Positions 1-63,655 of a stretch of 64,000 nt of DNA are shown piece by piece. The notes under the pieces were generated by a model that was not told the origin of the DNA, made no database searches, and saw only the letters and a program-made list of their open reading frames with translations. Numbering within the stretch: the stretch's first letter is position 1; each line of letters begins with the position of its first letter. Made by a program: the position numbers and the translations under genes. Origin of the DNA: Pteria penguin (Eukaryota; Mollusca; Bivalvia; Pterioida; Pteriidae). The stretch is from assembly GCA_035048485.1 (NCBI GenBank), contig CM068588.1:28972769-29036768 (forward strand), given 5' to 3'.

Positions 1-3000
1 CCGCGGAATGTGAAGCTGGTAGTAGATGTGATCCGGTATGACCCGCCAGAGATTAAGAAGGCCTTACTATTTGCCTGCGGTAATGCATTGGTTTGTGACA
101 CTGTAGATGACGCAAAGAGAGTTGCCTTCGGTGGACATGAGAGGCATAAAGTTAGTAATACATCTATATACATAGATTAAAGGCCTATATTTTTGTCCAG
201 TTTCACAGAACAGCACTTTTCTTGTTCTGCAATTTCACCAAATGTAGAAGAAAATTTTTATGTTCTAGACTTCAGAGCATATATATATTTTTAGTTTGTT
301 AGTCTTTGACATACCACTTTATCATCATTCTTAACCCTAGTCATGCTATATAAAATACATAGAAATAGTGCTGTGAGCTGAATATTTTTCTATGTATTTT
401 TTGTAAATACAGTGATGTGTTTGTATCCCGTTTTAAGAATGTTCTGTTCACAGCAATAATGACATATTATATATCAAAATGTTCAGGAAGGTTTGAAGTT
501 TATAAATATTGCACTTGTATGATCATAGTCGATGTCCAGCACAGGTAAACTGCAGGTAAATACAGGTATAAGCACAAAAAAACTAAGTTTTGAAATAAAT
601 CGATAAATTTATTCATGATAATACAACAGATGAGATTTAAAATAACTAAATGCACCAATATGAAACAGATCCCATGCACCAATAAGCAAATAAATAGTTC
701 TCAGGTAAATACAGGTAAAATTAAAATCATTTTAATGTGAAGACTTTCTTTAAAGATAATAAATATAATAAATAACAGCATTATAATTTAAATAGTCAAT
801 ACATTCTTAACTTATTGTCAAAATAACATTAACTGCACAACACAAAACTTGTACACCTGTCCAGGTATTACTCGTCTGCCTTGTTAGCTGCGCGACGCGA
901 TAGATAAGCACCAATGTAATCCTTGTATGTATGGTAAAGTTTGAAACATGGATCGATACATAGGGTGGTCTTGCACGATTCACACTGGTAAATGGATTCT
1001 TTCCCGGCACGTTTCCTCTTTTCACCTGCCCTTTCAAGGAGACGGCGTTCAGCCACCGAACACACAACACACGCACGGGAAGCATTCTTTTTCTTCCCAA
1101 AGGATTCCAGCCGTGCTGGAAAATGCTGGCCGTGTAACCGCATTATTGGTTCAGCAGCGGTAGACGGACGTCCACACGATTTTCTCCTAAGTCCCGGCAC
1201 ATTTTACTTGTCGACAGAACTAATTAAATTTTCTACGAGTTGTTTTCGAAACACTCTGTGTAATACAGGTTTGTCGGTCACGGACTTGTAGCACAGGTAA
1301 GCGTTTAATACGGAGAGCGACAAAACGTGGAATATTACGCGCTTCCACCACTTTAATGTTCTGGCATTGAAGGTGGCATAGGATACCATCTGATCTGACC
1401 GGTCAACACCTCCCATGTACTTATTATAGGCGTTCACGATAGATGGGTTCTGGATGGCTTCACCTGTCCTCGGGACTACCCGTCCACTCGGTTGCTGTGC
1501 GGCTTCCTCGATACTGGAGAGCAGGTAGACTGTTTTCCTGTCATGGTACTTGATGAGTAGTAGTTCATTGTTATGCATCGCAAACAGGTCCCCCTTCGCC
1601 ACTTTCTGATCTTTGATACGTTGCGGAATTCCCTTGCGGTTTGCACGGAGAGTACCTGTGGCGCCACACCCTAACGTAAATAAATCCATATATAATTTCG
1701 GCGAACTGTAGTAGTTGTCCATGTATAAAATATATCCTTTGCCATAATATCCTCTCATCATATCCATCACTAAATCATAAGTTGCACCATTTTCTCTCGC
1801 GGGCACCTCCGATTTCCCTGTATATAGCTTGAAACGCGAACAATATCCATTGACAGAGTCACATATCATGTAGGCCTTTATTCCATACTTCTTTGGTTTG
1901 TCGGGGTTATATACACGAAACGACAAGTTCCCACGCCACGGAATCATTCCTTCGTCTAATGATATATGCTGGCTTGGTGTATATAGTACTCCAAAACGAT
2001 GCACAATATTCTGATACAACTGTCCTAGTTTGTATAGTGGATCAAAACCGGGGGTTCCTCGTCGTGTCTGCAAGGTGTTATCGGCCAGGTGAAAAAAACT
2101 CATCAATAGCCAAAACCTGTCTCTGGTCATTACTGATGGAAAGAATGGAGTTGAATTCACGTCGGATGTAGTCCAGTATTCTGATACATCAAGCTGAACT
2201 ATGAGGCCCATCGCTATTATAAGTCCGAAGAACACCTTCATCTCGTCAATCGTTGTGGCTATCCAGCTACGAAAACGTGACGTGCGTTTCAGATTACCGG
2301 CGTTTTGTTGTAAGTACTGCTCTGCATAGCGATTAGTTTCATCTGCCATTGTCTGATAATCATCGTCATTTATAAACAAATTCAGAAAATCCAATGGAGA
2401 TCGTTTGTTGCCAGGCATATTTACATTCAGTCCCGGTACACCTGTAAATCCGAGGTCAACACGTGGTCGGTCGCCATCACACCAATTCTGCATAAAATCT
2501 GGCTGATCATCTACTTCTATACTGTTTTCTATTATGTCTTCAGCATTAAATCCTTCAAATTCCTCATCGCTATCATCGTTTCCAAAGATCTCATTGAAGA
2601 AAGTTTCGTGTTGTGGTAAAAATCCCGCCATCTTGTCAATGAATGAAAATATTTTCACACCTGTTCTCGGGTCTTAATATACGGACCAATCAAATTAAAG
2701 ATGATGTCATGGAAATTTTTGGGGAGAGGAATTATATCTCCATATATGGAAATGATTTTTTTTTATGTTTACAACGATTGGAGGGCTAAAAATACAACTT
2801 TACAATAAGCTACAATCGATCTAGTTGTTGCCCGTATTATTCCGGGTTCAGCTCACAGCGCGTGTATTTGATTCCCGGATTATTCCGGGTCCAGCATGAC
2901 TAGGGTTAAGTTGTGGACAGTGAGAAATTGGGCTGCATCAGTCTGAACTTAACAGACAGTGAGAAATTGAGCTTTGATATTTTTATATGTGTATTCCCAC

Positions 3001-3163
3001 TTACAATACCTTTTTGTTGAATTGGCTGCCTTTCAGGGGTGTCATTGTAAACAAGCAAATCCTGTTTCTTCAAAATAATAATTTACTATGTACAATTGTT
3101 TCAGTCTGTTGCACTGGATGGAACACTGTTTCAGAAGTCAGGAGTTATATCTGGAGGAGCTAG
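1..3163 (+). CDS. SMC1A: SMC1A hinge, end (exons 1-150 and 3105-3163)
   Basis: The first exon runs in frame from base 1 and ends in GGHERHK before GTTAGT at 151. The next exon begins [10 protein letters not shown] and ends VISGGA with a split Ser codon (phase 2). These residues match the C-terminal part of the SMC hinge, the SMC1-SMC3 dimerisation interface. The glycine-rich end is the usual exit into the returning coiled coil. The 2.95-kb intron between them carries the piggyBac element. The upstream intron edge is not visible, so the first exon may extend left. Confidence 0.94.
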
Positions 3164-6100
3164 GTAATTGAGCAAACAAACTTTATCTAAAGCAGTTGCT
3201 CTTTTTTTCTATGATTAATATGTTCAAATGTGAATGATAACCAACATAGTCGGTGTCAACAAATCCTATCACAACTCAGCACACGCTAGCATTTGTAAAT
3301 CATGATAAAGGAAGTCAGGCATCAATCTCAATGAGTAATGACAAACTCCTTTTAATAATACTGATAAAAGAATTGTCTTAACTATGGACAGCATTTTTTC
3401 AACATATTATACAGAAATTTTCACTCACATGGTTAATTGATGACAACTGTAGAGTAAAGTGACAGTATGTTTCAAGGTTTTGGCTTTATTTAAATTTCTA
3501 CTGTTTGGAACTACACTGCATCTTGCTGAAGGTGTTATAATTAAGAAGACTGTAATAGTTATTCATGTACAAGATACAGCATTGTCCAAAACATCCACGT
3601 ATCAAATCCATAACTAGATCATAAGTTCTCCCGAATTCACATGAATTATTTTGTAGATGCATCTTAACATCTAAACACCTTTTTGAGGTCAAAATTTCAT
3701 TAACTTTCTTGCTTCAATATATATATTGAGGTATAACTATGAAATGTATGACAACACACCAAGATTATTTCCAGTACGTGAAGTTGACACTTGCCTGGTA
3801 TGTCATACATGATGATTCTTCAACAGTCCAAACAAGTAATGCCACTAAGTATTATGATACTGGGTCTCCATTAATGATAGTCTTATGTGTGCATGTATAT
3901 TATCTTGAATGGTTCATAAAGATAATTTGCTAACTGCAAATCATGACTCATAAGGAGGTAATATTCTTGAGTTTAATATTAAGTTCTATGGGAATTTCAG
4001 TGACTTGAGAGCAAAAGCTAGAAGATGGGATGAGAAACAGTTGGGACAATTGAAGAACAGAAAGGAGAAATTGATGGAAGAATTAAAGGAACAGAATAAA
4101 AAGAAGAGAAAGGAATCAGAGCTGAGTACAATAAGATCACAAATCAAAGGTTATGAGACTCGTCTGAAGTACTCCATCACAGACCGAGATAATACTGTGA
4201 GTACTAGAATGATATAGTGTAGCTCACAGACTGAGATAATACTGTGAGTACTAGGATGAGATAGTGTAGCTCACAGACTGAGATAATACTGTGAGTACTA
4301 GGATGAGATAGTGTAGCTCACAGACTGAGATAATACTGTGAGTACTAGAATGATACAGTGTAGCTCACAGACTGAGATAATACTGTGAGTACTAGGACGA
4401 GATATTGTAGCTCAGAGACCGAGATAATACTGTGAGTACTAGGATGATGTAGTGTAGCTCACAGACCGAGATAATACTGTGAGTACTATAATGATATTGT
4501 AGCTCAGAGACCGAGATAATACTGTGAGTACTACGATGATACAGTCTAGCTCACAGACCAAGATAATACTTTGAGTACTAAGTTGAGATAGTGTAGCTCA
4601 CAGACCGAGATAATACTTTGAGTACTAAGTTAAGATAGTGTAGCTCACAGACTGAGATAATACTGTGAGTACTAGGATGATACAGTGTAGCTTATCCAAA
4701 GTGGTTCATGTAACGTACAAAGAATATAATAAAGCTCCATATGTTTATCCCATCAAACATGGTGAATACTTTCATCTACTTTAAGCACACCAGTGTCCTG
4801 TCAAATGAGACAGTAAAAACCGAGGTTCTGTGTCACAGTGGGCAGTTTACATAAAAGATCTCTCACTGCTTCGGATGAGTCTGTTAGGTAGGAATTTGTA
4901 TTCAATACATTAGGCAGATGCCGTTTTGTGAAATAATCGTGGATTGACTTAGAACGATAATGAATCAGTCAGTCCGTCTACAAAGCATTAGTTATTATGA
5001 TACATGTACGATGTGTAACTGTTCCTTTTTGAAAATTTGATAATTACTGACATGTGTTTGCACTGTGCATCTGTACATTATTAGTTTGTTTAAATAGGAG
5101 TTGTCCTTGTCACAGCATTAATTTGTGCCATTTTCTTTACTAGCTCAACAAGCATTTAACACAGAATGAGAAAGATCAAAATATGTACCAGGAGATGCTG
5201 AAACAGTTTGAAGTAAGTGAAAACAATTCTCTTAAATGTATAACTAGTAACGTCATGCTTTTCAGGGAAAGTCATGCTTTTCATGGAAAACCAATAACTT
5301 TTTGTTAATATTAATTCCAAGTTGAATTTCATTGCTTTATTCAAATTAAAGTCTGTTAGTGTACCTTATGAACGCTTATCTCAAAAGAAATTGCCCATGA
5401 TTTGGCATCTATTTGATATTTAATGCTTAACTTTGAGGACTGTATAACCTTTTGATGAGTTTAGATGGTTTATTTGTTGATATTTTAAATCTTGTCTTGT
5501 GTAGTTGCTTGAAATTAAAATATTAGAAGTAAAAGGAGCAATTTTGCTGTCAATGGGTGATTACAATAGGTGTGTAAAGATTCCAATACATGTGTCACCA
5601 TAGATAAGTAATTCATATTTTTCCATTATATCTATATAGCCAAGAATGCAGGAAATCGAAAGGAGAATGTTAGAAAGGGGAGATAAAATCAAGGTATTGA
5701 AAGACAAAATGAACAGAGTTGAAGACGAAGTATTTGCTCATTTCTGTCTGCAGATTGGTGTGGATAATATCAGGTAGAGATCCTTGTTTTACTTTTATCT
5801 GTAGGTTTAGGAGAGATAGAGAGGGTTGAAGCCTCAGTTGCAAGCACTTTGTTTTCTGTATAGAAATCAAGGCTTCAAATTGAAGATTACTAGCAATATC
5901 ATACCCCCTGCAAACATAGTGTAGGATAACAGTTAACAAAACATCCTAGTCAACCTTAATAATACTTTGTAAAATACACAGAAATAACACTGTGAGCTGA
6001 ATAGTTATGGTAATTCAAACAGCATAGGAACACTTTTGTATGGAGAAGGATGTCTCCATGGTAATACTGTAAATTACTTGTATTTCACATGATCTTGTGT

Positions 6101-9100
6101 TTGTTAGGATCTCTCTTTAGGTATATTCACAAGACCAATACCCAAGTAGGCAGTGGGAAGTTAAAGAATCCTATTACTTTGGCTGGGACTGTTGCATAGA
6201 TAAAGACTTGTAGCATTAATAAAAGGGCATGGTCTAACATCTTAACTATTGTCCCTCTTTCAGACAATTTGAAGAAAGAGAATTGCTTGTTCAGCAAGAC
6301 AGAGCAAAGAAGAGATTGGAATTTGAGAATCAGAAATTTCGTCTTCAAAATCAAATAGAGTTTGAAAGGTCAAGAGATACCATTGGTAAGACAATTTACA
6401 TGTACAAATGAAAGTCATTCTTCTAGATGTTCAGATGATAAAAATAAATACTGAGATTGGTTTGCTTTATGTTATAGAAGTTTGATTTCTCTTCTGTGCA
6501 TTCTTAGTGTATCAGTAAAGCACTTGCTTTATGTTATAGAAGTTTGATTTCTCTTCTGTGCATTCTTAGTGTATCAGTAAAGCACTTGCTTTATGTTATA
6601 GAAGTTTGATTTCTCTTCTGGGCATTCTTAGTGTATCAGTAAAGCACTTGCTTTATGTTATTGAAGTTTGATATCTCTTCTGTGCATTCTTAGTGTATCA
6701 GTAAAGCACTTGCTTTATGTTATAGAAGTTTGATTTCTCTTCTGGGCATTCTTAGTGTATCAGTAAAGCACTTGCTTTATGTTATCGAAGTTTGATATCT
6801 CTTCTGGGCATTCTTAGTGTATCAGTAAAGCACTTCCTGTATGTTATAGAAGTTTGATTTCTCTTCTGGGCATTCTTAGTGTATTGGTAAAACACTTGCT
6901 TTATGTTATAGAAGTTTGATTTCTCTTCAGGGTATTCTTAGTGTATCAGTAAAGCACTCCCATTTAGTTTGATTTCTGAACTGCACCCTAGTGTAAAGAG
7001 GTTGTGACCTCTCTGCTTCCATATACCGATACATTGTATACATGACTGAAGTTGTTGATAGATTAAAACCCCATTCTACCATTCTACACAGTTCTAATCG
7101 ATGTGTAATCAAACCCTCTTTACAGGATTTCTAAACTGATAGTTGGCTACTTACTTAAAGCGTATTTAATATGAAAAACACTAAAACATAAAAAAATTGT
7201 GGTTGTTAGATAGATAATTATATCATAAGCCATTATTTAGAGCTGACAATAGTCATGGTCCATGTGGCATGTTAAAGATCCCTCACTGCTTTGGGTAGGT
7301 CCATTTGTTACATAGGTCTAAATTTTTGTGCATAGCATACTGCAGATGTTGTTACCATAGAAGTGCAATAATGTTGGTGTGATGTGAAACAAGACTCAAA
7401 TAAAATATCAGATTTAAGTATGCATATGTGCTGGAAATCATATTTCTGTATGTATCTTTGCCCTGTCTTTTAGCCAACGTCAGTAAATGGGAGTCAACAG
7501 TACTGAATGACGAACGGGAGTTGGAGAAAGTGAAGAATGATGAAGCTAGGAATATTAATGTAAGTATTTGTCCTTTAAATAACCTTCTGATTCTTAATAT
7601 ATGTACACCTACCTATATGTCATGGCCCTGTCATTTCTTTGAAAAGTTGCACTTTCATTCTTACGATTAAATGAGCTAATGGCACAATTCAGTGTCAAAC
7701 AGCGAATGTCTTGTATGTTTTACCAATAAGCTGCTGATCAGCTACTTTAAGCCGGCGTGGCCTAGTGGTATTGCGCTGGACTCATAATCGGGAGGCCTTG
7801 GTTCGATTCCCACTCTGGTCATGCCGTGGTCCTGTCTTTCAGATGAGACAGTAAAAACCGAGGCCCCGTATCGTGGTATGCATGGCACGTTAAAGCTCCC
7901 TCACTGCTTCGGTTGAGTCCGCTGCCAAGGTCAAAATTTGTATGTCCCGCATCAGGCAGATGCCATCACCATATACGTGAAATATTCGTGGTGTGACGTT
8001 AAACAAAAATCAATCAATCAATCAGCTACATTAAATTCCATTTCTATCTGTCATTAGATGAAAATCTGTGTTGTATCTTCTAATAAGAGATAAGGGTAAG
8101 CCATCACTGACAGTTGTTTGTGGTGTATTATTTATATATTTATATCTATATATGGAGCAATTGCCATATTTGGTGCCAAATCAATTTTGTTGGCTGAACA
8201 GTTAAGCATTATAGCATGGTATTGAAACATAAGGAATTGTAGCCATACATTGTGGACATATCATTGAAAGGCTTCAATAAAAATCCATTTTTTTTTTGCC
8301 CTGATAGCTGATTGATGAGGCAATGCAGACACAGGAGAAGTTGAAGCGTCAGAGGTTAACGGCTAAATCGCAGGTTGATGACTTTGACTCAGAAATCAAT
8401 GAAATAAAAAAGAAATTGAACGCTCACCAGAAAGATGTAGTGGCTGCACAAAAAGCAATAACTGCTGTAGAGACCAAACTCGAGCAGAAAAGAGCTGATC
8501 GACATAGTCTGCTCAAGGCTTGCAAAGTGAGTAGAGACTTCACTGCAGCACAAGTCGTGAATATGCATGACTGGCTGTTCTTCTTTGATGCATTTGTATT
8601 ACCATGCTATAGCAGGGATTTTCTTCATGCCTTTGCAAATGAAGTCTAGGTCTTTCCCATTGGAAATTCAAGCGACATTTTGCCCAAATTGTGAAAAAAA
8701 AATTTTCAGAAGTATGTACATTTAAAGAAATTTTATTCAAAATCTTTTTAAGATACTTTTCAAAATATATATTGATGTCATTATTATATAATTCATACTC
8801 AAAATTATTCTATTTTCATCTTACAGCCACAAAATATAACTTTTTCTTTTCGCTTGAAATTGGGAATTTTTTATGAACAAATGGAGAAAAATGGTTGCTA
8901 TTTAACAACTGGAAAATGCCTGCTATGTGCCATGAACAAAATAAGTGTTCAAGAAAGTAAAAAGCTGGTGTGGCCCAGTAGATGAGGTACTCAGCTTGTT
9001 ACATAAGGTCCTGATGTTGATTCCCGCCATGGACACACCAAAGTTCTGTCTTTTGAATGAGACAGTAAAAACCGAGGTTCTTTGTCAGGGTAGGCGTGGC

Positions 9101-12100: not shown

Positions 12101-15100
12101 TAATTGAAACGATTACTTCTTACTTTGTGACCTTGATTTCACGGTCAATTTCCCAAAATATAACTTTGACTGTATCTTAAGCCGGCGTGGCCTAGTGGTA
12201 TCACGCTGGACTCCTGATCAGGAGGCCGGGGTTCGAGTCCCGCTCTGGTCATGACGGTGTTCTGTCTTTCAGATGAGACAGTAAAAACTGAGGCCCCGTG
12301 TCATGGTATGCATGGCACGTTAAAGATCCCTCACTGCAGAGGTCAAAATTTGTATGCCCCACATCAGGCAGATGCCGTCACCATATACGTGAAATATTCG
12401 TGGTGTGACGTTAAACAAAAATCAATCAGTCAATCAATTGGCCGTATCTTCAGAATAAAAACAGAATTGCCGTGAACACAGGATCTCAGCAATACAGGGT
12501 ACTATACAGTATAAACCCATTTGTATACATACAACTCTGGTAATGACCTTCATTATATTGAAACCTCCTCCCCAAATTTAGTCCTTGTAAGGCATCAAAC
12601 AATAAAATATGTATGTCCTATTCCTTTAGCTAATTACTTGCTATTAAATTAAATATTGCAGTCACTTGCAAGAAACCAGAGTGCTCAGGCCTTCCTTGGT
12701 CCAGAAAATCCAGAGGAACCATATTTAGATGGTGTTAATTACAACTGTGTGGCTCCAGGCAAGCGATTTAGGCCTATGGACAATTTGTCTGGAGGAGAAA
12801 AGACTGTAGCAGCCTTGGCTCTCCTTTTCTCAATTCACAGGTATCCAAATTACTTCTTCACTAAAACTCACTAGATACCTTTTACCATATTTCAATCAAC
12901 AAATGATTATTTTGTAGATATTTGAATAGGTCGAGATTCTCTGCCCTTCTCCCACTTATGATATTGGCGGGCATTTCTTCCTCCTTTATTGTCTTGTTAA
13001 TCACTTTGTTTGTACAAACAGTGACACTTCCAGATAACGAGTATAAAATATATAGAAATCGGAGTTCGAGGATAGCAAAATTCCTTTGACATAACTACAA
13101 CTTAACCAACATAAAATCGTAAAGAAAGTAAAGGGAGAAATTGGGGACTTGAACTTGATTTTGAGATAAACAGAATTTCAACTTGAGCAACTTTAAAATA
13201 ACAAGTTTGAACTGTCTGACAGACAAATGATTATTTTGATATCGAGGGGCATTTCTTCCTCCTTTATTGTCTTGTTAATCACTTTGTTTGTACAAACAGT
13301 GACACTTCCAGATAACGAGTATAAAATATATAGAAATCGGAGTTCGAGGATAGCAAAATTCCTTTGACAGAACTTTAACTTAACCAACATAAAATCGTAA
13401 AGGGAGAAATTGGGGACTTGAACTTGATTTTGAAATAAACAGAATTTCAACTTGAGCAACTTTAATATAACAAGTTTGAAATCTCTGACAGACAAATGAT
13501 TATTTTGATATCGAGGGGCATTTCTTCCTCCTTTATTGTCTTCTTAATCACTTTGTTTGTACAAACAGTGACACTTCCAGATAACGAGTATAAAATATAT
13601 ATAAATCGGAGTTCGAGGATAGCAAAATTCCTTTGACGTAACTTCAACTTAACCAACATAAAATCGTAAAGAAAGTAAAGGGAGAAATTGGGGACTTGAA
13701 CTTGATTTTGAGATAAACAGAATTTCAACTTGAGCAACTTTAAAATAACAAGTTTGAACTGTCTGACAGACAAATGATTATTTTGATATCGAGGGGCATT
13801 TCTTCCTCCTTTATTGTCTTGTTAATCACTTTGTTTGTACAAACAGTGACACTTCCAGATAACGAGTATAAAATATATAGAAATCGGAGTTCGAGGATAG
13901 CAAAATTCCTTTGACAGAACTTTAACTTAACCAACATAAAATCGTAAAGAAAGTAAAGGGAGAAATTGGGGACTTGAACTTGATTTTGAAATAAACAGAA
14001 TTTCAACTTGAGCAACTTTAATATAACAAGTTTGAAATCTCTGACAGACAAATGATTATTTTGATATCGAGGGGCATTTCTTCCTCCTTTATTGTCTTGT
14101 TAATCACTTTGTTTGTACAAACAGTGACACTTCCAGATAACGAGTAAAAAATATATATAAATCGGAGTTCGAGGATAGCAAAATTCCTTTGACATAACTT
14201 CAACTTAACCAACATAAAATCGTAAAGAAAGTAAAGGGAGAAATTGGGAACTTGATTTTGAGATAAACAGAATTTCAACTTGAGCAACTTTAATATAACA
14301 AGTTTGAACTGTCCGACAGACAAATGATTATTTTGTAGATATATAAATAGTACGAGATTCTTTGCCCTTTTCCCACTTTTTGATATCGGCGGGTTGTGGG
14401 AGAGGGTCAAAGAGAGTTTGTTCATCAAAAGTTGGAATTTTAGCGATACCAGCCGATATCGTGATGTACAAGCCTCTGGCGACAAATAAACGTTTGCACA
14501 GCAAACTTGCAATCTATAATCCAATAAATGAACATTTAACTTACTTGATCATAGCAATATAAAAGAAATTTTCATATATATATGTATATAGTAATATACA
14601 CGGATGTTTTTATCTTAATAGTTACCAGCCAGCTCCTTTCTTTGTGTTGGACGAGATTGATGCTGCCTTGGACAATACGAACATCAGCAAAGTAGCATCA
14701 TACATCTGTGATCAATCACGCACTAATTTCCAGACAATTGTCATCTCTCTGAAAGAGGAGTTCTATAACCGATCAGATGCATTGATTGGTATATACCCTG
14801 AGGTAAAGTCACATTTACAGCTTTGTCATACACTTCGATGAGAATGCCCTACACTTGCATTGTCTAAAAACAGGGGTTGATTTGATAGGTTGAATGTTTC
14901 TTACAAAAACGACCATATCATTAATATTGGTTACCTATGAAATAGAAGCCGATGTGGCCTTGTGGATAAGGTGCTCAGCTCTTGATCTTGAGGTCCTGGG
15001 TTAGACTCCTGCCCTGGACACACCGGTGTTCTGTCTTTCGGATGAGACAGTAAAAACCTGAAGTCCCATGTCATGGTAGGCGTGGCAAGTAAAAGATCCC

Positions 15101-58181: not shown

Positions 58182-61100
58182 TCTTAAGTGATCTACATTT
58201 ACTTCAAAAGGGGAAAGAGCCGACATGACTCACTGCTTCAGGTATTTAGCTCAAGAATGGAAAGTCATGGGTTCAAATCCCAGAGGAGCCTCATTTGCTT
58301 CAAGGCAAATGTTACATTTGTTTTACCATTGATTGTGTGCTGGTTTTGCTCCCTGTTATGACTGTAGTAAATCAATTGGTGAACATGCAAAATATTTATT
58401 TACCCTATATTCCATGATTAAGCACTTGCCAACTGACTTCAGTTAATATTACACGTATTTAAACAGATCCTCCTCACAAGAAATAAAGTACTTGTTTTTT
58501 TAACTGATTTGTTACAAAGTGGAATAACTAAATATATTCTTCCTACAGATTGCAGAGGAAACTGAAGAGAAGATTGACACTTCTCGAATGGGATATCGAC
58601 CAATCGCTAAACACTCCTCTATTTTATTCTTCTCGATTGCTGATTTACCAAACATTGACCCCATGTATCAGTATTCACTGACTTGGTTTGTCAACCTCTA
58701 CATTCTGTCCATCCAAGAAAGGTATTTATATTCTTCAAATTCTCATATTTAGAAAATTATTTATTCTCATAGATTTTGTTAATTCTTATATGAATAAATG
58801 TAATATTTAGGATTATCATGATAAATGTATTATTTATTTAGTGATAAATGTCTTATTGTTAATAATGGTATACATGTACTCAGATTATTTGTCTTATAAA
58901 AGAAAAGAGACTTTTGGTGTAGTATACAAAATAATAGTATTTCATACAATGAAACATAGAATTAAAGTAAAGATTATTGAGTTAAAGCACTCTTATAAAC
59001 CATAATGTAATATTTGTCTTGATATGACTAATAATGAGTGTGTTTATTACAGGATAATGAATTTTGTTGATTATTGCATGTTTCATGTCATAATTTTTGA
59101 ATTACATGTAGTGTGCAAAAAATCATACATGATACTAACGTGCTGGGATTAATTAGTATAGAAATAAAGCCTTTATCTTGTAACAATGTATTGAAGTCTG
59201 AGGATCACTACATTTACACAATAGTTTGGTGCCATTGTCATGATTAATATTATGAGTGTCCTATAGAGATCTTTATACAAATGTATAAGCAGTACTGGTG
59301 TTTCTCACTCAGAACCTGTAGATACCTCTATATTCTAGCTATTTATAAGTCTGTAAATGACTTTCAAGTCTTGATATTTCAGTAACAAATCCAAGATATT
59401 GGACCGTAGACTGCGATACCTCAAGGATCATTTCCAGTATCAGCTTTATGACAATGTGTCTCGTTCAATATTTGCTAAGCACAGACAAGTGTTTACGTTT
59501 ATTCTTTGTGCTAATTTATTGCTGTGAGTACCCATTAGGTGTACACGGAACTCGTCTGTGTGCACAGTATATAGCCTACACAGTAGTAGTGGATGTAATA
59601 TTAGGTCCTTTGTATTCAGTCCAATAGCCATGCATGTACTATATTATTCTACCCAAGTACATATAGATCCACATACACTTCATGCATGTAGTACACCGTC
59701 AGTGTTAGCACACAGATATAGTATATTACTATTATCATATATATTGTCTCCTAAATATGAGTCTAGAAACATGAAATGAAAACTCTATAAATTCTTTTAA
59801 AATGGAATAAGTATTTTTCCTAGAACTAATGTTAATCATTGTATTGAGATAGAAACACAGCTGTTTCTAGATTCATACTTTATGTCTGTGTCTACTAGCT
59901 ACACATCTAGATCTTCTGATCAAGACTTTTCCTCTGTCACCAACACAGGGACTTGAGATTGAGTTTCCAAATTATCTTATTTAGTCTATGATATCAATCT
60001 TTCTGTATTTCAGCAACCGATCAAAGATGTTGGAACGCCGATTGCGTTATCTTTCAGATCATTTCACCTACAGCTTGTACTGCAATGTTTGTCGTTCTCT
60101 GTTTGAGAAAGACAAACTTCTATTTTCTTATATTCTTTCCTCAAATATTATGTTGTAAGTATGATAGGATGTAAATTTCGTGTGCTTACCATATAGTCAT
60201 CTCACCTGGCTTGCCTTGCTATAGTTTTCACTGCTTGAAATTTGTTTTTTCATTTCCACCTTGTTCTAGCATGGAATATAATGCATGTACACACAGTTTC
60301 CCGCACCTACCGTAGTCAACTCATAACCTCTGAACAATTTTAACTTTCTCTTTATTCCAGGCTTACCAGTTTGACCTATAATTAATCCTCTCTTCCAGAC
60401 TTGATTGTGTGATGTGTTTCCAATACTGTTGTCAAACCCTCAAAACTAACTGTCTTTTGTATCCTATTCTTTCCCTTGTGTATTACAGCAACAGATCCAA
60501 GATTTTGGAGCGACGTCTACGCTATCTTTCTGATCATTTCACTTACAGTTTATACTGTAATGTTTGTCGATCCCTCTTTGAGAAAGATAAACTTCTTTTC
60601 TCCTTTATTCTGAATTGTAATATAATGTTGTAAGTAATACTATGGTGTCAATCCCTTATAGAAGTTTATTTTGCTGCGTTTTTTGTGAGGTTGTTTTCAC
60701 TCACCCTTGGTCTTTGCTTTGTTTTTCCAGTCTTAGTTGTGATTTGAAGTGAAGTTGGTAGCCATATCTTGTATTAAAATATCATGTACCTAACCTTTTG
60801 TTTTCATTGTGAGATATTTATGATTATTTTCAATAACTAGATGTGGTGGTTTTGGTTGCTATGGCTACATGATGCCAATTCTGTTACAATATTATACAGT
60901 ACATACAGTGTGCGCTTTTCTATTTTGTCTGAATCCTAACCATACATGCTCATGTGTTTCAGCAATAAGTCAAAGATATTGGAACGTCGCTTGAGATACC
61001 TCTCTGACCACTTTACATTTCTCTTGTATTGTAATGTGTGTCGCTCCTTGCTTGAAAAAGACAAAATCCTCTTTTCTTTCGTTCTGTGCTCTAATGTCTT

Positions 61101-63351
61101 ATTGTAAGTATCGCTACGAATTCAGAATAGGTTCTCACTTAAGTTATCTTTCTTATTATTTCTTTTCTCTCATTTGAAATTTACTCTACAATATATTGAA
61201 TTTTTAAAAAGGTTTGATAGTTCTTCTATTAATGCCATATGCTTTTAATTTTTTGTCATTTGCTCTAACAATTTGCATTATGTTGTTTTGGTGGTTTTGA
61301 TTTTTTATTTTCTTTCCATTACATTGTATCATAATGTTTGAATATAGGATATGCTTTATACATTTGCTTCTTTGTAATCATGCAATGATAGAGTATCAAT
61401 TTTGACTAGTTTCAAATGAAATAACCTAACCTTTAAATGAAGTGGTTTCAAATTTAAAAAAAAAAAAAAAATTTAAACTTTATTTATTTTACAACGATTA
61501 AGAAACAAGTTAACAACTTATATAAATCTTGTTCAAATAGTAAAGCATCTGTGTAAAGCACTTGTAAATAAATGTATTATTATATAGTTACTTGCTTATC
61601 TATGAACTTGCAGTTTAACTATCTAGAAATCAATTGTCAAAATATTTCTTATATCATTGATTAATGAAAAATTTTAAAAATATTGCATTCAAGTTGTTTT
61701 TTGGTCTATGATTTTAAGTTCAGGCAATGATATACTAACAATAATGACAAAACATTTCATTTGACAATCGTATATATGTAATTTTCTCTTGTAGAATTTA
61801 AACATTTTAATATTTCTGGGTTTTGTTCTAGTCTTTGTCATATATGATTCCTTACTATACTGTCACTATAATTTGTCAAACTTTTAAAACTTTTCAGTGG
61901 TTCACCATTTCGGTAAACAAGCAGTGTTATCGTATTTTATGATTTGTAATTAGTTCAACTATTTAAATATGATTTTGGAAATGATAATTTATTTATTTTT
62001 TGAAGACAGATATCTTTTATATTCAATTGATATTTGCATGAAATCTTTAATTTTTCTATTCATTTAATTCTGTGGTGTAAATGTTTAAAGAAATTATTCT
62101 TGTTTCTGTAAAATTTATGTCTTTGAATTTTACTTTCCAAATAACTGTAATGAGTTATGCACATATATGTGAAGTGAAAAATTCCCCAGAATAAACATAT
62201 TGAAATATAACTAAGCTTCAAAGGAAACTGGGAGGAATGTTACTATTTTCATTTCATTAATTTATGTTAGTTTAGATAATATTTTCATAAATGAAATATA
62301 ATGATCAGAAAAACAATACATATATAATAAGAGACTTAAAAACAAATAGTTACCACCTATCTCAGTTAATTTATGATAAAGAATACGTCAGGTTATCTAA
62401 CGATGAAACTTATTTTATATCAAACCAATTGATTTAAATGGAGTCCAAATTATCTTTAATATCAACAAGTTGTTATGTGTATTGATTTATTTGTTTGCAT
62501 ATTCTGAATTTTCATTTTTCATTTACAGTTCCAAGGGAGAATTGGACCATGATGAGTTCATGTTTTTCCTGACTGGTGGTGTAGGTCTAGAAAATAAATT
62601 GGCTAATCCCGCACCAACGTGGCTTACAGACAAAAGCTGGGATGAAATCTGTCGTCTAGCTGACCTGAAGAAGTTCAAAAAATTTAGGTACATAGAAAGC
62701 ACCGCTTAGAATATAGATGTGGTTAATATCAAACTTAACAACTATGTAATTCACATGAATAATATGCTTTGAAAATATTATGATGATTATTCTCTATAAT
62801 GATATAGATAAAAGTACCTGCATACCGTAGTTATATAAATCAAGTATCTACATCTAGGTAATTAATATTTAATTTAATCAGCTTCTGGACAGTTTTCACT
62901 AGTATTCCAGTTAATTAGAGTCAGAATGTAATAAAATACCAAAGCAGTGCCATTCTATCTTGAATGCCTGCTCCCCATCATTTGTGCAATAGTTATACGA
63001 TTTGTGTATTACACTCTTCCTCTTTTTTTCTGGATCAGAAGGTTCTAGGGTAATAGTGTTTAGTCTGTATTTGTTCCTCTTTCAGAGATTTTGCACTATA
63101 TAGGCCAGTTGATGGCTGAGAGTGGAATTTGTGTTCATAAACATTCCTCTTTTATGTACTATATTTGTGACATTCTCTTTATGGTGAACAAATGTGTGCT
63201 TTCTAGGGAACATTTCACTTCCCACCTGGATAAATGGGCTGAGTATTATAACTCGCGGGAACCACAAAATGAAGAATTACCCCAGCCATTCCAGAAGGAT
63301 TTAAATGACTTTCAAAGAATGATTGTTTTACGTGTCCTTAGACCAGACAAA
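28358..63351 (+). CDS. DNAH7: Axonemal dynein heavy chain, DNAH7/3/12 class (3' partial)
   Basis: This is a motor subunit of a single-headed inner dynein arm of motile cilia. Exons: 28358-28620, 28922-29012, 31835-32024, 32335-32410, 33272-33289, 34442-34600, 34912-34944, 35319-35514, 35720-36065, 36271-36362, 36712-36890, 37051-37312, 37450-38058, 38243-38428, 38638-38838, 39331-39525, 39731-40135, 41768-42370, 42523-42615, 42752-43144, 43370-43599, 43905-44316, 44532-44717, 44943-45068, 45473-45661, 46310-46455, 46866-47004, 47230-47589, 47801-48006, 48323-48397, 48748-48838, 50457-50635, 51200-51392, 51850-52011, 52450-52644, 53228-53524, 53806-54063, 54458-54679, 54903-55433, 55675-55820, 56105-56319, 57459-57651, 57849-58041, 58549-58721, one of four at 59383-61103, 62529-62687, 63207-63351. 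All phases agree over 10,152 nt (3,384 residues). The remaining ~640 residues (AAA6, C-terminus) lie beyond the window. The short tail fits DNAH7/3/12; which paralogue is uncertain, DNAH7 being my best match. Confidence 0.93.
29013..31834 (+). other. DNAH7: Large dynein intron, nothing recognised
   Basis: 2.8 kb of very AT-rich sequence lies between tail exons 2 and 3. A purine run (ggggaggggggagggag) sits near 29131-29147. I saw no repeat family, no coding homology and no structured RNA in it. Confidence 0.6.
32411..34441 (+). other. DNAH7: Dynein introns around the 18-nt exon
   Basis: Two AT-rich introns (32411-33271 and 33290-34441) flank only an 18-nt exon. A short (TA)n tract lies at 32518-32534. 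No mobile element was recognised. Confidence 0.6.
36580..36710 (+). repeat. (TTA)n microsatellite in a dynein intron
   Basis: Imperfect TTA/ATT repeats with TTATCAT interruptions end only a few bases before the acceptor of exon 36712. They form part of that exon's polypyrimidine region. The all-Ile and all-Tyr open frames here are artefacts of this repeat. Confidence 0.95.
36712..38058 (+). CDS. DNAH7: Dynein tail-to-linker region (three exons)
   Basis: Residues 489-838: exon 36712-36890 (VDCEDLKQ-type sequence, [20 protein letters not shown]), exon 37051-37312 ([36 protein letters not shown]) and the large exon 37450-38058 ([15 protein letters not shown], [40 protein letters not shown]). 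A basic/acidic run ([11 protein letters not shown]) near the end matches the charged loop seen in this class. A 168-residue antisense open frame over 37567-38073 is a shadow. Confidence 0.92.
38243..40135 (+). CDS. DNAH7: Dynein linker domain (DHC_N2), four exons
   Basis: Residues 839-1167. Landmarks: [90 protein letters not shown] and [20 protein letters not shown]. The linker is the mechanical lever that swings across the AAA ring in the power stroke. Wording is close to vertebrate DNAH7 over hundreds of residues. Confidence 0.95.
38960..39210 (+). repeat. Old diverged SINE copy in a dynein intron
   Basis: Worn versions of the SINE body are present: gttttagatgagactgtaaa, tcagtaaaagatcccttact, gcatcaggaaaatgcaccca and ttcttggtgtgatgtaaaat. 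The head (ccatagctcagtttgatcga) is only loosely tRNA-like. Borders are approximate. Confidence 0.5.
40136..41767 (+). other. DNAH7: Large dynein intron with AAGGTCA-type repeat
   Basis: The 1.6-kb intron lies before AAA1. Its 3' half (41150-41530) holds repeated aaggtcaa words (ccaaggtcaacgttactgtg, tcaaggtcactgttagcttt, caaggtcaaagctcaaaggt, ccaaggtcaaggtacatgta), similar in style to 16150-16500. The rest shows nothing recognisable. Confidence 0.6.
41768..43144 (+). CDS. DNAH7: Dynein AAA1, main ATPase site (three exons)
   Basis: Residues 1168-1530. The Walker A GPAGTGKT is at residues 1331-1338. Walker B (CFDEFNR, D1383-E1384) is in exon 42523-42615. Sensor and arginine regions ([40 protein letters not shown]) are in exon 42752-43144. 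All catalytic residues are present, so this is an active motor site. It is preceded by a 1.6-kb intron. Confidence 0.97.
43370..45661 (+). CDS. DNAH7: Dynein AAA2 (five exons)
   Basis: Residues 1531-1911. P-loop GEPFGCKT at 1612-1619, then [40 protein letters not shown] and [20 protein letters not shown]. Exon 44532-44717 has [20 protein letters not shown], and exon 45473-45661 has the lid ([20 protein letters not shown]). AAA2 binds but is not expected to hydrolyse ATP. Confidence 0.95.
46163..46245 (+). repeat. (TA)n(TG)n microsatellite
   Basis: About 28 TA units are followed by about 13 TG units in the intron before exon 46310-46455. Open frames reading YIYIYI and CVCVCV come from it. The unit count is probably polymorphic. 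Confidence 0.95.
46310..48838 (+). CDS. DNAH7: Dynein AAA3 (six exons)
   Basis: Residues 1912-2250. P-loop GPTGTGKS at 1966-1973, then [53 protein letters not shown] and [20 protein letters not shown]. Exons 47801-48006, 48323-48397 and 48748-48838 give the lid and the AAA3-AAA4 connection ([30 protein letters not shown]). AAA3 is the regulatory ATPase site, and its Walker motifs are intact. Confidence 0.95.
48839..50456 (+). other. DNAH7: Large dynein intron with two 6-nt exon-like sites
   Basis: The 1.6-kb AT-rich intron lies between the AAA3 lid and AAA4. It contains atag|ATTGAG|gtaatg (49105-49110) and atag|AGACGT|gtaagt (49304-49309), each phase-neutral. No repeats were recognised. Confidence 0.5.
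50457..52644 (+). CDS. DNAH7: Dynein AAA4 (four exons)
   Basis: Residues 2251-2493. Exon 51200-51392 has the P-loop GVGGSGRQS (2334-2342), with Arg where AAA1 and AAA3 have Lys, as is usual for AAA4 of axonemal dyneins. Exon 51850-52011 has [20 protein letters not shown] and [14 protein letters not shown]. Exon 52450-52644 has [20 protein letters not shown] with CCTIDWFQ. A short exon-like sequence at 51606-51632 precedes exon 51850. Confidence 0.95.
53228..55433 (+). CDS. DNAH7: Dynein stalk and microtubule-binding domain (four exons)
   Basis: Residues 2494-2929. Coiled coil 1: exons 53228-53524 and 53806-54063 ([20 protein letters not shown], Ala/Glu-rich [20 protein letters not shown]). 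The microtubule-binding domain is exon 54458-54679 ([40 protein letters not shown]). Coiled coil 2: exon 54903-55433 ([35 protein letters not shown]). The tip is contained in one exon. Its length is standard; the long flap of DNAH8/DNAH9-type arms is not seen. Confidence 0.95.
55675..58721 (+). CDS. DNAH7: Dynein AAA5 (five exons)
   Basis: Residues 2930-3235. Landmarks: [120 protein letters not shown] and [20 protein letters not shown]. The last exon ends LSIQER with a split codon (phase 2), the entry point to the alternative-exon cluster. Confidence 0.94.
56320..57458 (+). other. DNAH7: Large dynein intron in AAA5
   Basis: 1.1 kb of AT-rich sequence. A strong acceptor-like tract (ccccccctctgcttactcag) at 57119-57138 precedes an 18-nt phase-neutral exon-like segment (57139-57156). 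Nothing else was recognised. Confidence 0.5.
58127..58178 (+). repeat. (TA)n microsatellite
   Basis: About 26 TA units lie 85 nt after the donor of exon 57849-58041. They are intronic; the YIYIYI open frame is an artefact. Confidence 0.95.
58211..58300 (+). repeat. tRNA-derived SINE head, degenerate
   Basis: It reads gccgacatgactcactgctt, atttagctcaagaatggaaa and gtcatgggttcaaatcccag. The B-box ggttcaaatcc is intact; the A-box region (catgactcactgc) is damaged. It is a different tRNA-like head from the two types in SMC1A introns, and the expected body is not evident. Too degenerate for a functional tRNA. Confidence 0.55.
59383..59523 (+). CDS. DNAH7: Dynein alternative exon a (141 nt)
   Basis: It reads [41 protein letters not shown] and ends CANLLL. 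Acceptor AG at 59381-59382, donor GTGAGT at 59524. Its length and phases equal those of exons b, c and d. It is the most diverged copy: the near-invariant '[14 protein letters not shown]' of dyneins is '[14 protein letters not shown]' here. The frame is fully open, so it is not an obvious pseudo-exon. Confidence 0.82.
60014..60154 (+). CDS. DNAH7: Dynein alternative exon b (141 nt)
   Basis: It reads [41 protein letters not shown] and ends SSNIML. Acceptor at 60012-60013, donor GTAAGT at 60155. It differs from exon c at only four of 47 residues. It carries the canonical motif found in other axonemal dyneins. Confidence 0.9.
60489..60629 (+). CDS. DNAH7: Dynein alternative exon c (141 nt)
   Basis: It reads [41 protein letters not shown] and ends NCNIML. 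Acceptor at 60487-60488, donor GTAAGT at 60630. Introns on both sides are almost the same length (334 and 333 nt). The sequence is closest to the family consensus. Confidence 0.9.
60963..61103 (+). CDS. DNAH7: Dynein alternative exon d (141 nt)
   Basis: It reads [41 protein letters not shown] and ends CSNVLL. Acceptor at 60961-60962, donor GTAAGT at 61104. It is intermediate in divergence: [10 protein letters not shown] becomes [10 protein letters not shown] and TYSLY becomes TFLLY. A 1.4-kb intron follows before the constant exon 62529. Confidence 0.9.
61104..62528 (+). other. DNAH7: Intron after the alternative-exon cluster
   Basis: 1.4 kb of AT-rich sequence with a poly-A run at 61456-61471. 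I looked for a fifth copy of the 141-nt exon (DHF, YCN and FEKDK words) and found none. No mobile element was recognised. Confidence 0.65.
62529..63351 (+). CDS. DNAH7: Dynein start of AAA6 (two exons)
   Basis: Exon 62529-62687 reads [40 protein letters not shown] and ends LKKFKKF with a split Arg. Exon 63207-63351 starts [20 protein letters not shown] and ends VLRVLRPDK before GTAAGT. Both are conserved at the front of AAA6. A longer open frame upstream of 63207 is intron read-through, because the acceptor ttctag|gg restores the expected sequence exactly. Confidence 0.93.
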
Positions 63352-63484: not shown

Positions 63485-63655
63485 CTGTAAATTTGATGAA
63501 TTTTGTCATTGGAACAGAAACCAATTATTTTGATGAATTTTGTCATGGAACAGACACTTATTATTTGATGAATTTTGTCAGGGAACAGACACTTATTATT
63601 TGATGAATTTTGTCAGGGAACAGACACCAATTATTTTGATGAATTTTGTCTTTGT
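63485..63655 (+). repeat. Short ~33-45-bp tandem repeat in a dynein intron
   Basis: tttgatgaattttgtca recurs with ggaacagacac spacers at about 63494, 63531, 63561, 63601 and 63637. Units vary in length (acaccaattattt, acacttatta). Non-coding. Confidence 0.85.

Follow-up and report, generated by a model that had tools for sequence, protein, structure and literature searches.

The window (the whole 64-kb stretch of DNA analysed here) carries the gene of an axonemal inner-arm dynein heavy chain, identified below as DNAH12, in which four tandem exons very probably form a mutually exclusive cluster, with two exon types (A and B) that would be older than the split between bivalves and gastropods and with type B multiplied in this lineage. 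The four exons encode alternative versions of one 47-residue block of the motor, and the evidence for this reading comes from the architecture of the exons, from the constraint acting on them and from the recurrence of the A and B pair in the genes of other molluscs.

The exon cluster and its place in the DNAH12 gene

All exons of the region lie on the plus strand. The constant exon upstream of the cluster, on the AAA5 side (58549–58721), ends with two bases of a split Ser codon at the donor AAG/GTATTT and is followed by an intron of 661 nt (58722–59382). The variable exons, named copy 1 (59383–59523), copy 2 (60014–60154), copy 3 (60489–60629) and copy 4 (60963–61103), are separated from each other by introns of 490, 334 and 333 nt, and a last intron of 1425 nt leads to the downstream constant exon (62529–62687, with its 3' end placed by eye at AG/GTACAT). 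Copy 1 is assigned to type A and copies 2, 3 and 4 to type B (see below); copy 3 shares 44 of 46 residues with the Mytilus protein and copy 4 departs furthest from the other B copies (L20, L30 and I35). The arrangement put forward in the original prediction could be confirmed, as the four homologous exons are exactly 141 nt long with AG before and GT after, their entry and exit phases are identical (one base, 46 codons and two bases, with no in-frame stop) and the splicing of any single copy from 58721 to 62529 gives a product that is open and in frame. The alignments between the copies are gap-free, with protein identities of 57–91%, and tblastn comparisons between them within the window gave E values from 3e-15 to 7e-25. 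Tandem internal exons of similar length, with the same phase, splice ends and homology, are the features that define a mutually exclusive exon cluster in the available text of two earlier studies (PMC3228551, PMC5740500), and all of them are present here.

No fifth copy was recognisable in the 64 kb (the best tblastn match outside the cluster had E = 0.70), and an all-versus-all comparison of open frames of at least 25 residues, with E up to 1e-3, revealed no further duplicated exons in the dynein gene. Elsewhere on the plus strand, self-matches occur at 4–18 kb and 63.4–63.7 kb, largely in repeats. Tandem arrays with units of 47, 62 and 278 bp are placed upstream of the dynein gene (4177–4692, 6462–6958 and 12969–14335), and a 35-bp tandem repeat in 4.5 copies (63491–63650) is found beyond the last exon matched in the window. 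In addition, a 489-codon open frame on the minus strand (1207–2673) contains a DDE_Tnp_1_7 transposase domain (Pfam E 6e-88).

The gene extends from 28382 to 63354 on the plus strand, as delimited by tblastn with the protein P0123, splice refinement and matches to DNAH12 proteins. Its exons in the window match residues 3–3374 of the 4006-residue Mytilus orthologue, covering 3325 of the 4006 residues, and the 3' end of the gene lies beyond the window. A spliced region of 157 residues found human DNAH12 as its best match among solved structures (E 1e-71), with no Pfam domain detected in this test protein, and one large exon retrieved full-length mollusc proteins that are mostly named DNAH12. When the window gene was compared with 16 reference proteins, Crassostrea came out nearest (84.1% of 3474 aligned residues) and Argopecten next (80.8%), which makes a pteriomorph bivalve the probable source. 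Judged by these closest relatives over its length, the gene is DNAH12. A search of viral contigs also returned one dynein-like locus, a 6.6-kb contig filed as viral (IMGVR_UViG_3300005724_000028, IMG/VR) that encodes a piece of a dynein heavy chain with 43% identity; it is possibly a misfiled eukaryotic contig and was kept out of the comparisons.

The variable block corresponds to residues 3225–3271 of Mytilus DNAH12, where all four copies match, and in the Pfam layout of that orthologue it falls between the AAA_9 domain (2942–3162) and the D6 P-loop domain (3407–3521). These coordinates bear out the location between AAA5 and AAA6 that had been claimed for it. Its supposed helical nature is likewise supported by the predicted model of a 275-residue relative (P0001; mean pLDDT 75, and 83–96 per ten residues across the block), in which two helices could be seen, one at block positions 6–26 approximately and the other from position 31 on. 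The best structural matches of this model, 9fqr_PW and 8j07_g1, are both DNAH12 chains. Since the block is modelled as a pair of helices, its loss or doubling should damage the motor.

Types A and B: residues, constraint and age

A closer inspection of the best full-length matches showed that most animals have a B block like copies 2–4 and several molluscs an A block resembling that of copy 1. The A blocks identified number eleven, and the taxonomic reach of the type is a lower bound (the search for more A-type proteins gave only 5 proteins); these blocks belong to the bivalve Sinanodonta, to nine gastropods (Plakobranchus, Gigantopelta, Haliotis, Patella, Pomacea, Nucella, Physella, Biomphalaria and Littorina) and to P0136, which is most like caenogastropods. 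Positions 31, 33 and 36 of the block are Ala, His and Val in 11 of 11 A rows and Glu, Asp and Leu in 22 of 22 chosen B rows (Macrostomum being set apart), and position 23 is Asp in 11 of 11 A rows and Cys in 21 of 22 B rows. At all four diagnostic positions copy 1 shows the A state (D23, A31, H33 and V36) and copies 2–4 the B state. With respect to B, type A changes a near-invariant element of the ring, with Glu31 replaced by Ala and Asp33 by His at the start of the second helix, and Cys23 by Asp.

The 241 fetched proteins provided 218 motif-bearing blocks, in which positions 31 and 33 are Glu/Asp in 198 and Ala/His in 11, this last combination being seen only in the 11 A blocks. The rarer states are Lys/Asp (4), Glu/His (4) and Ala/Asp (1). 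The single Ala/Asp case is the block of Macrostomum lignano (P0155), which combines an A-like Ala31 and an acidic Glu23 with a B-like Asp33 and could be either an early A form or a convergence; in the residue table this block was not placed among the 22 B rows, and in the tree it was counted with B. The difference between types is concentrated in the block when Patella (A) is compared with Lottia (B): outside the block the two proteins agree in 92.2% of 2032 columns, inside it in 30 of 46 residues.

The tree built from 38 blocks places copy 1 with the 11 A blocks at a support of 95/92, although the alignment has 46 columns only, most forks are open and the bootstrap had not settled. The A rows of this tree are all 11 found and the B rows are 23 hand-chosen as a spread of the matches. 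A single clade for the four window copies was rejected (p-AU 9.5e-5), and the grouping of copies 2–4 as one clade gave a p-AU of 0.088. By its position in the tree and its diagnostic residues, copy 1 is an ancient and distinct type A, and copies 2–4 are, on the same grounds, versions of the standard type B. The description of the cluster as four tandem copies stands as far as homology and interchangeability are concerned, but the copies are not equal siblings, with copy 1 representing an old type shared by bivalves and gastropods.

The values of dN for the copy pairs are 0.05–0.32, and dS is saturated or 2.8 in all six pairs. Copies 2 and 3 encode 91% identical proteins (42 of 46 residues), yet they have the same base at 3 of 15 four-fold sites, near random. 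This pattern indicates that every copy is under purifying selection; the synonymous sites are saturated and the protein is conserved, and the copies are therefore old, with no apparent decay in any of them. The possibility that one exon was recently quadrupled was rejected on account of the placement of copy 1 in the older group and of the saturated synonymous sites. The nearly equal peptides of copies 2 and 3 have been kept for long, different regulation being one possibility.

It could be argued that only one or two of the copies are used and that the remainder are decaying exon duplicates, given the weak donors of copies 2–4 (see below), the near identity of the peptides of copies 2 and 3 and the predominance of type B in the bivalve proteins examined. 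Nevertheless, frame, splice ends and protein sequence are preserved in every copy in spite of the saturation of their synonymous sites, and type A is conserved in 11 proteins, which makes such a decay quite improbable.

The comparison of the locus in other molluscs, proposed together with the cluster as a way of checking it, gave a favourable outcome. Among 23 long mollusc or mollusc-like proteins, 16 have one block (7 A and 9 B), 4 have an A block and then a B block and 3 have none, these being Mya P0124, which skips the block, and the incomplete P0146 and P0230. The A-then-B arrangement recurs within single gene models of Sinanodonta, Plakobranchus, Nucella and Pomacea, in the same order as in the window. 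The gene tree calculated outside the block, from which Mya P0124, Batillaria and Octopus were left out, follows the main mollusc groups and not the A versus B division, with the A/B labels somewhat clustered on it (7 changes against a shuffled mean of 9.7, a value as low being reached in 4 of 200 shuffles). Most gastropods of this tree show type A; of its seven bivalve models six carry B alone and one carries both types, and therefore type A in bivalves rests on Sinanodonta and the window. With this distribution the A/B pair seems to predate the bivalve–gastropod split.

The two DNAH12 models of Littorina saxatilis (P0186 and P0241) present a different situation. They are diverged from each other (78% identical), with equal lengths given for their contigs, and P0186 and P0241 differ in that one carries A and the other B; to judge from this divergence, the contrast is a gene duplication here, which may have split the exon choice between two genes. 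Extended to molluscs as a whole, it would mean that the A/B contrast comes from paralogous genes and not from alternative exons of one gene. Such an origin is hardly credible, however, because A and B are found together in one gene in the window and in the four other models, and the gene tree outside the block tracks the main mollusc groups.

Proposed use of a single copy and possible routes to exclusion

The 121 long homologues contain one block in 111 cases, two in 4 and none in 6. The contig of P0136, 11738 nt long with an open frame of 3736 residues, is presumably spliced RNA, since dozens of introns interrupt the gene in the window; type A stands alone there between both normal flanks. 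On the proposed reading, exactly one copy would enter each mRNA of the window gene.

As had been anticipated, the reading frame cannot enforce this exclusion, since 141 is divisible by three and the skipping of the copies, the joining of copies 1 and 2 and the joining of all four leave the product in frame with no stop. The same freedom would suit non-exclusive cassette exons included in variable number, with some dyneins having a longer AAA5–AAA6 linker, and in this line both types are combined in the models of Sinanodonta, Plakobranchus, Nucella and Pomacea, and neither is present in one Mya model (P0124). Gene predictors do, as these models show, join or skip block exons; the resulting products could be real isoforms, and isoform names X1–X3 are common among the mollusc matches (in a database clustered at 90% identity). 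Cassette exons of this kind are nonetheless unlikely, given the single block in the great majority of the long homologues and in the cDNA-like P0136, the automated look of the joined models (that of Pomacea is without the next exon and that of Nucella stops at the B block) and the presumed position of the helix pair in a closed ring, where two pairs in series should not fit. The mutually exclusive look of the cluster is sustained by the common length and phase of the exons, their homology, the same structural element that they encode and the purifying selection acting on them, and is qualified by the four automated models that join A and B.

The splice sites of the cluster were compared with those of 35 other introns of the gene (the 38 fitted junctions outside the cluster minus 3 poor fits). 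The donors of copies 2, 3 and 4 are weak, with 0, 0 and 1 of the 35 introns scoring as low or lower against reference donors that are somewhat flattered, as the junction fitting slightly favoured donors close to the consensus; their low scores are mainly due to the exon ending in T. For the donor of copy 1 the corresponding figure is 5 of 35, and the acceptors of the cluster exons are ordinary. The combination of weak donors and ordinary acceptors suggests a regulated recognition of these exons.

Three routes to exclusion find little basis in the cluster. A frame shift followed by NMD would not arise from exons of 141 nt whose combinations are in frame without a stop, and steric hindrance (a donor–branch point distance under about 50 nt) is not expected from introns of 490, 334 and 333 nt. 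Mixed U2 and U12 classes were not seen among the donors (GTATTT, GTGAGT and three times GTAAGT), as compared by eye with the U12 consensus. Competing RNA structures are described as a well-established route to exclusive exon choice in the available text of PMC6071210, and according to the part of a survey of human clusters that could be consulted (PMC5740500) they are usually not conserved over long distances. No intron–intron pair gave a duplex that beat 10 shuffles, in a scan whose long tiles make it insensitive. Twelve overlapping docking scans were also carried out: the four with 20-nt windows fell in the upper tail, being matched by 5, 25, 16 and 8 of 200 shuffles (best candidates at 58956–58975 and 61336–61355), and the eight with shorter windows of 12 or 16 nt did not stand out, 70–181 of 200 shuffles being as good. 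After 12 tests in A+T-rich introns, the 20-nt scans hint at most at a docking/selector pairing, and no convincing pairing shared across the cluster introns was detected by the duplex and docking scans.

In the scenario that we propose, each DNAH12 mRNA would take one of four versions of the 47-residue block between AAA5 and AAA6, either type A (copy 1) or one of the three B forms (copies 2–4). The A/B pair would have arisen before bivalves and gastropods split, with B later multiplied to three in this lineage, and the choice would be made at splicing through regulated recognition of the weak-donor exons. A functional effect of exchanging A and B may be expected, the two types perhaps giving the motor distinct properties in different ciliated cells or in sperm. 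A broader formulation, to which we would give even chances, is that a DNAH12 splicing switch has been kept since before the bivalve–gastropod split, supplying inner-arm motors with different ring coupling, and that some bivalves have widened it to four options.

Significance and comparison with known systems

The diversity of axonemal dyneins is usually attributed to many heavy-chain genes. If the proposed cluster is correct, a conserved exon switch acting on the ATPase ring of a single heavy chain would add a second source of diversity and would offer a natural swap experiment on the AAA5–AAA6 junction. The cluster can be regarded as more than a routine duplicate because it is old, being shared by bivalves and gastropods, and because it alters a near-invariant motif. 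The original prediction knew of no described mutually exclusive cluster in an axonemal dynein, and none was found in the literature searched, among the matches listed and with subscription titles mostly outside its reach; the available text of PMC3303723 makes no mention of dynein, and the negative result on axonemal dynein also covers the accessible part of PMC3583065. Mutually exclusive clusters are already known as a kind, and the DNAH12 instance appears to be new.

Like the clusters of Dscam type with docking and selector sequences, in the portion of PMC6071210 available, the DNAH12 cluster consists of tandem homologous exons of which one would be chosen, but it differs from them in that the scans gave no convincing docking/selector pairing. 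A closer relative by protein family is the cytoplasmic DHC1 of Schistosoma mansoni, for which a mutually exclusive exon was predicted from sequence (PMC3228551, available in part). In both cases an exon of a dynein heavy chain gene has a tandem duplicate that is equally long and likewise begins and ends within a codon; the flatworm case, however, involves a cytoplasmic dynein and a query exon with one candidate. The muscle myosin heavy chain genes, including those of oyster, scallop and limpet, use mutually exclusive exon clusters, and scallop transcripts for catch and striated muscle are known (PMC3912159, accessible text). There, as would be the case in DNAH12, a single motor gene gives rise to several isoforms through the exchange of short motor-domain exons, in molluscs as well. 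The myosin is a muscle actin motor with several clusters per gene backed by transcripts, whereas DNAH12 is ciliary, with one cluster found and recognised from sequence. If its four exons are indeed exchanged as proposed, the DNAH12 cluster would be comparable to those of the myosin heavy chain.
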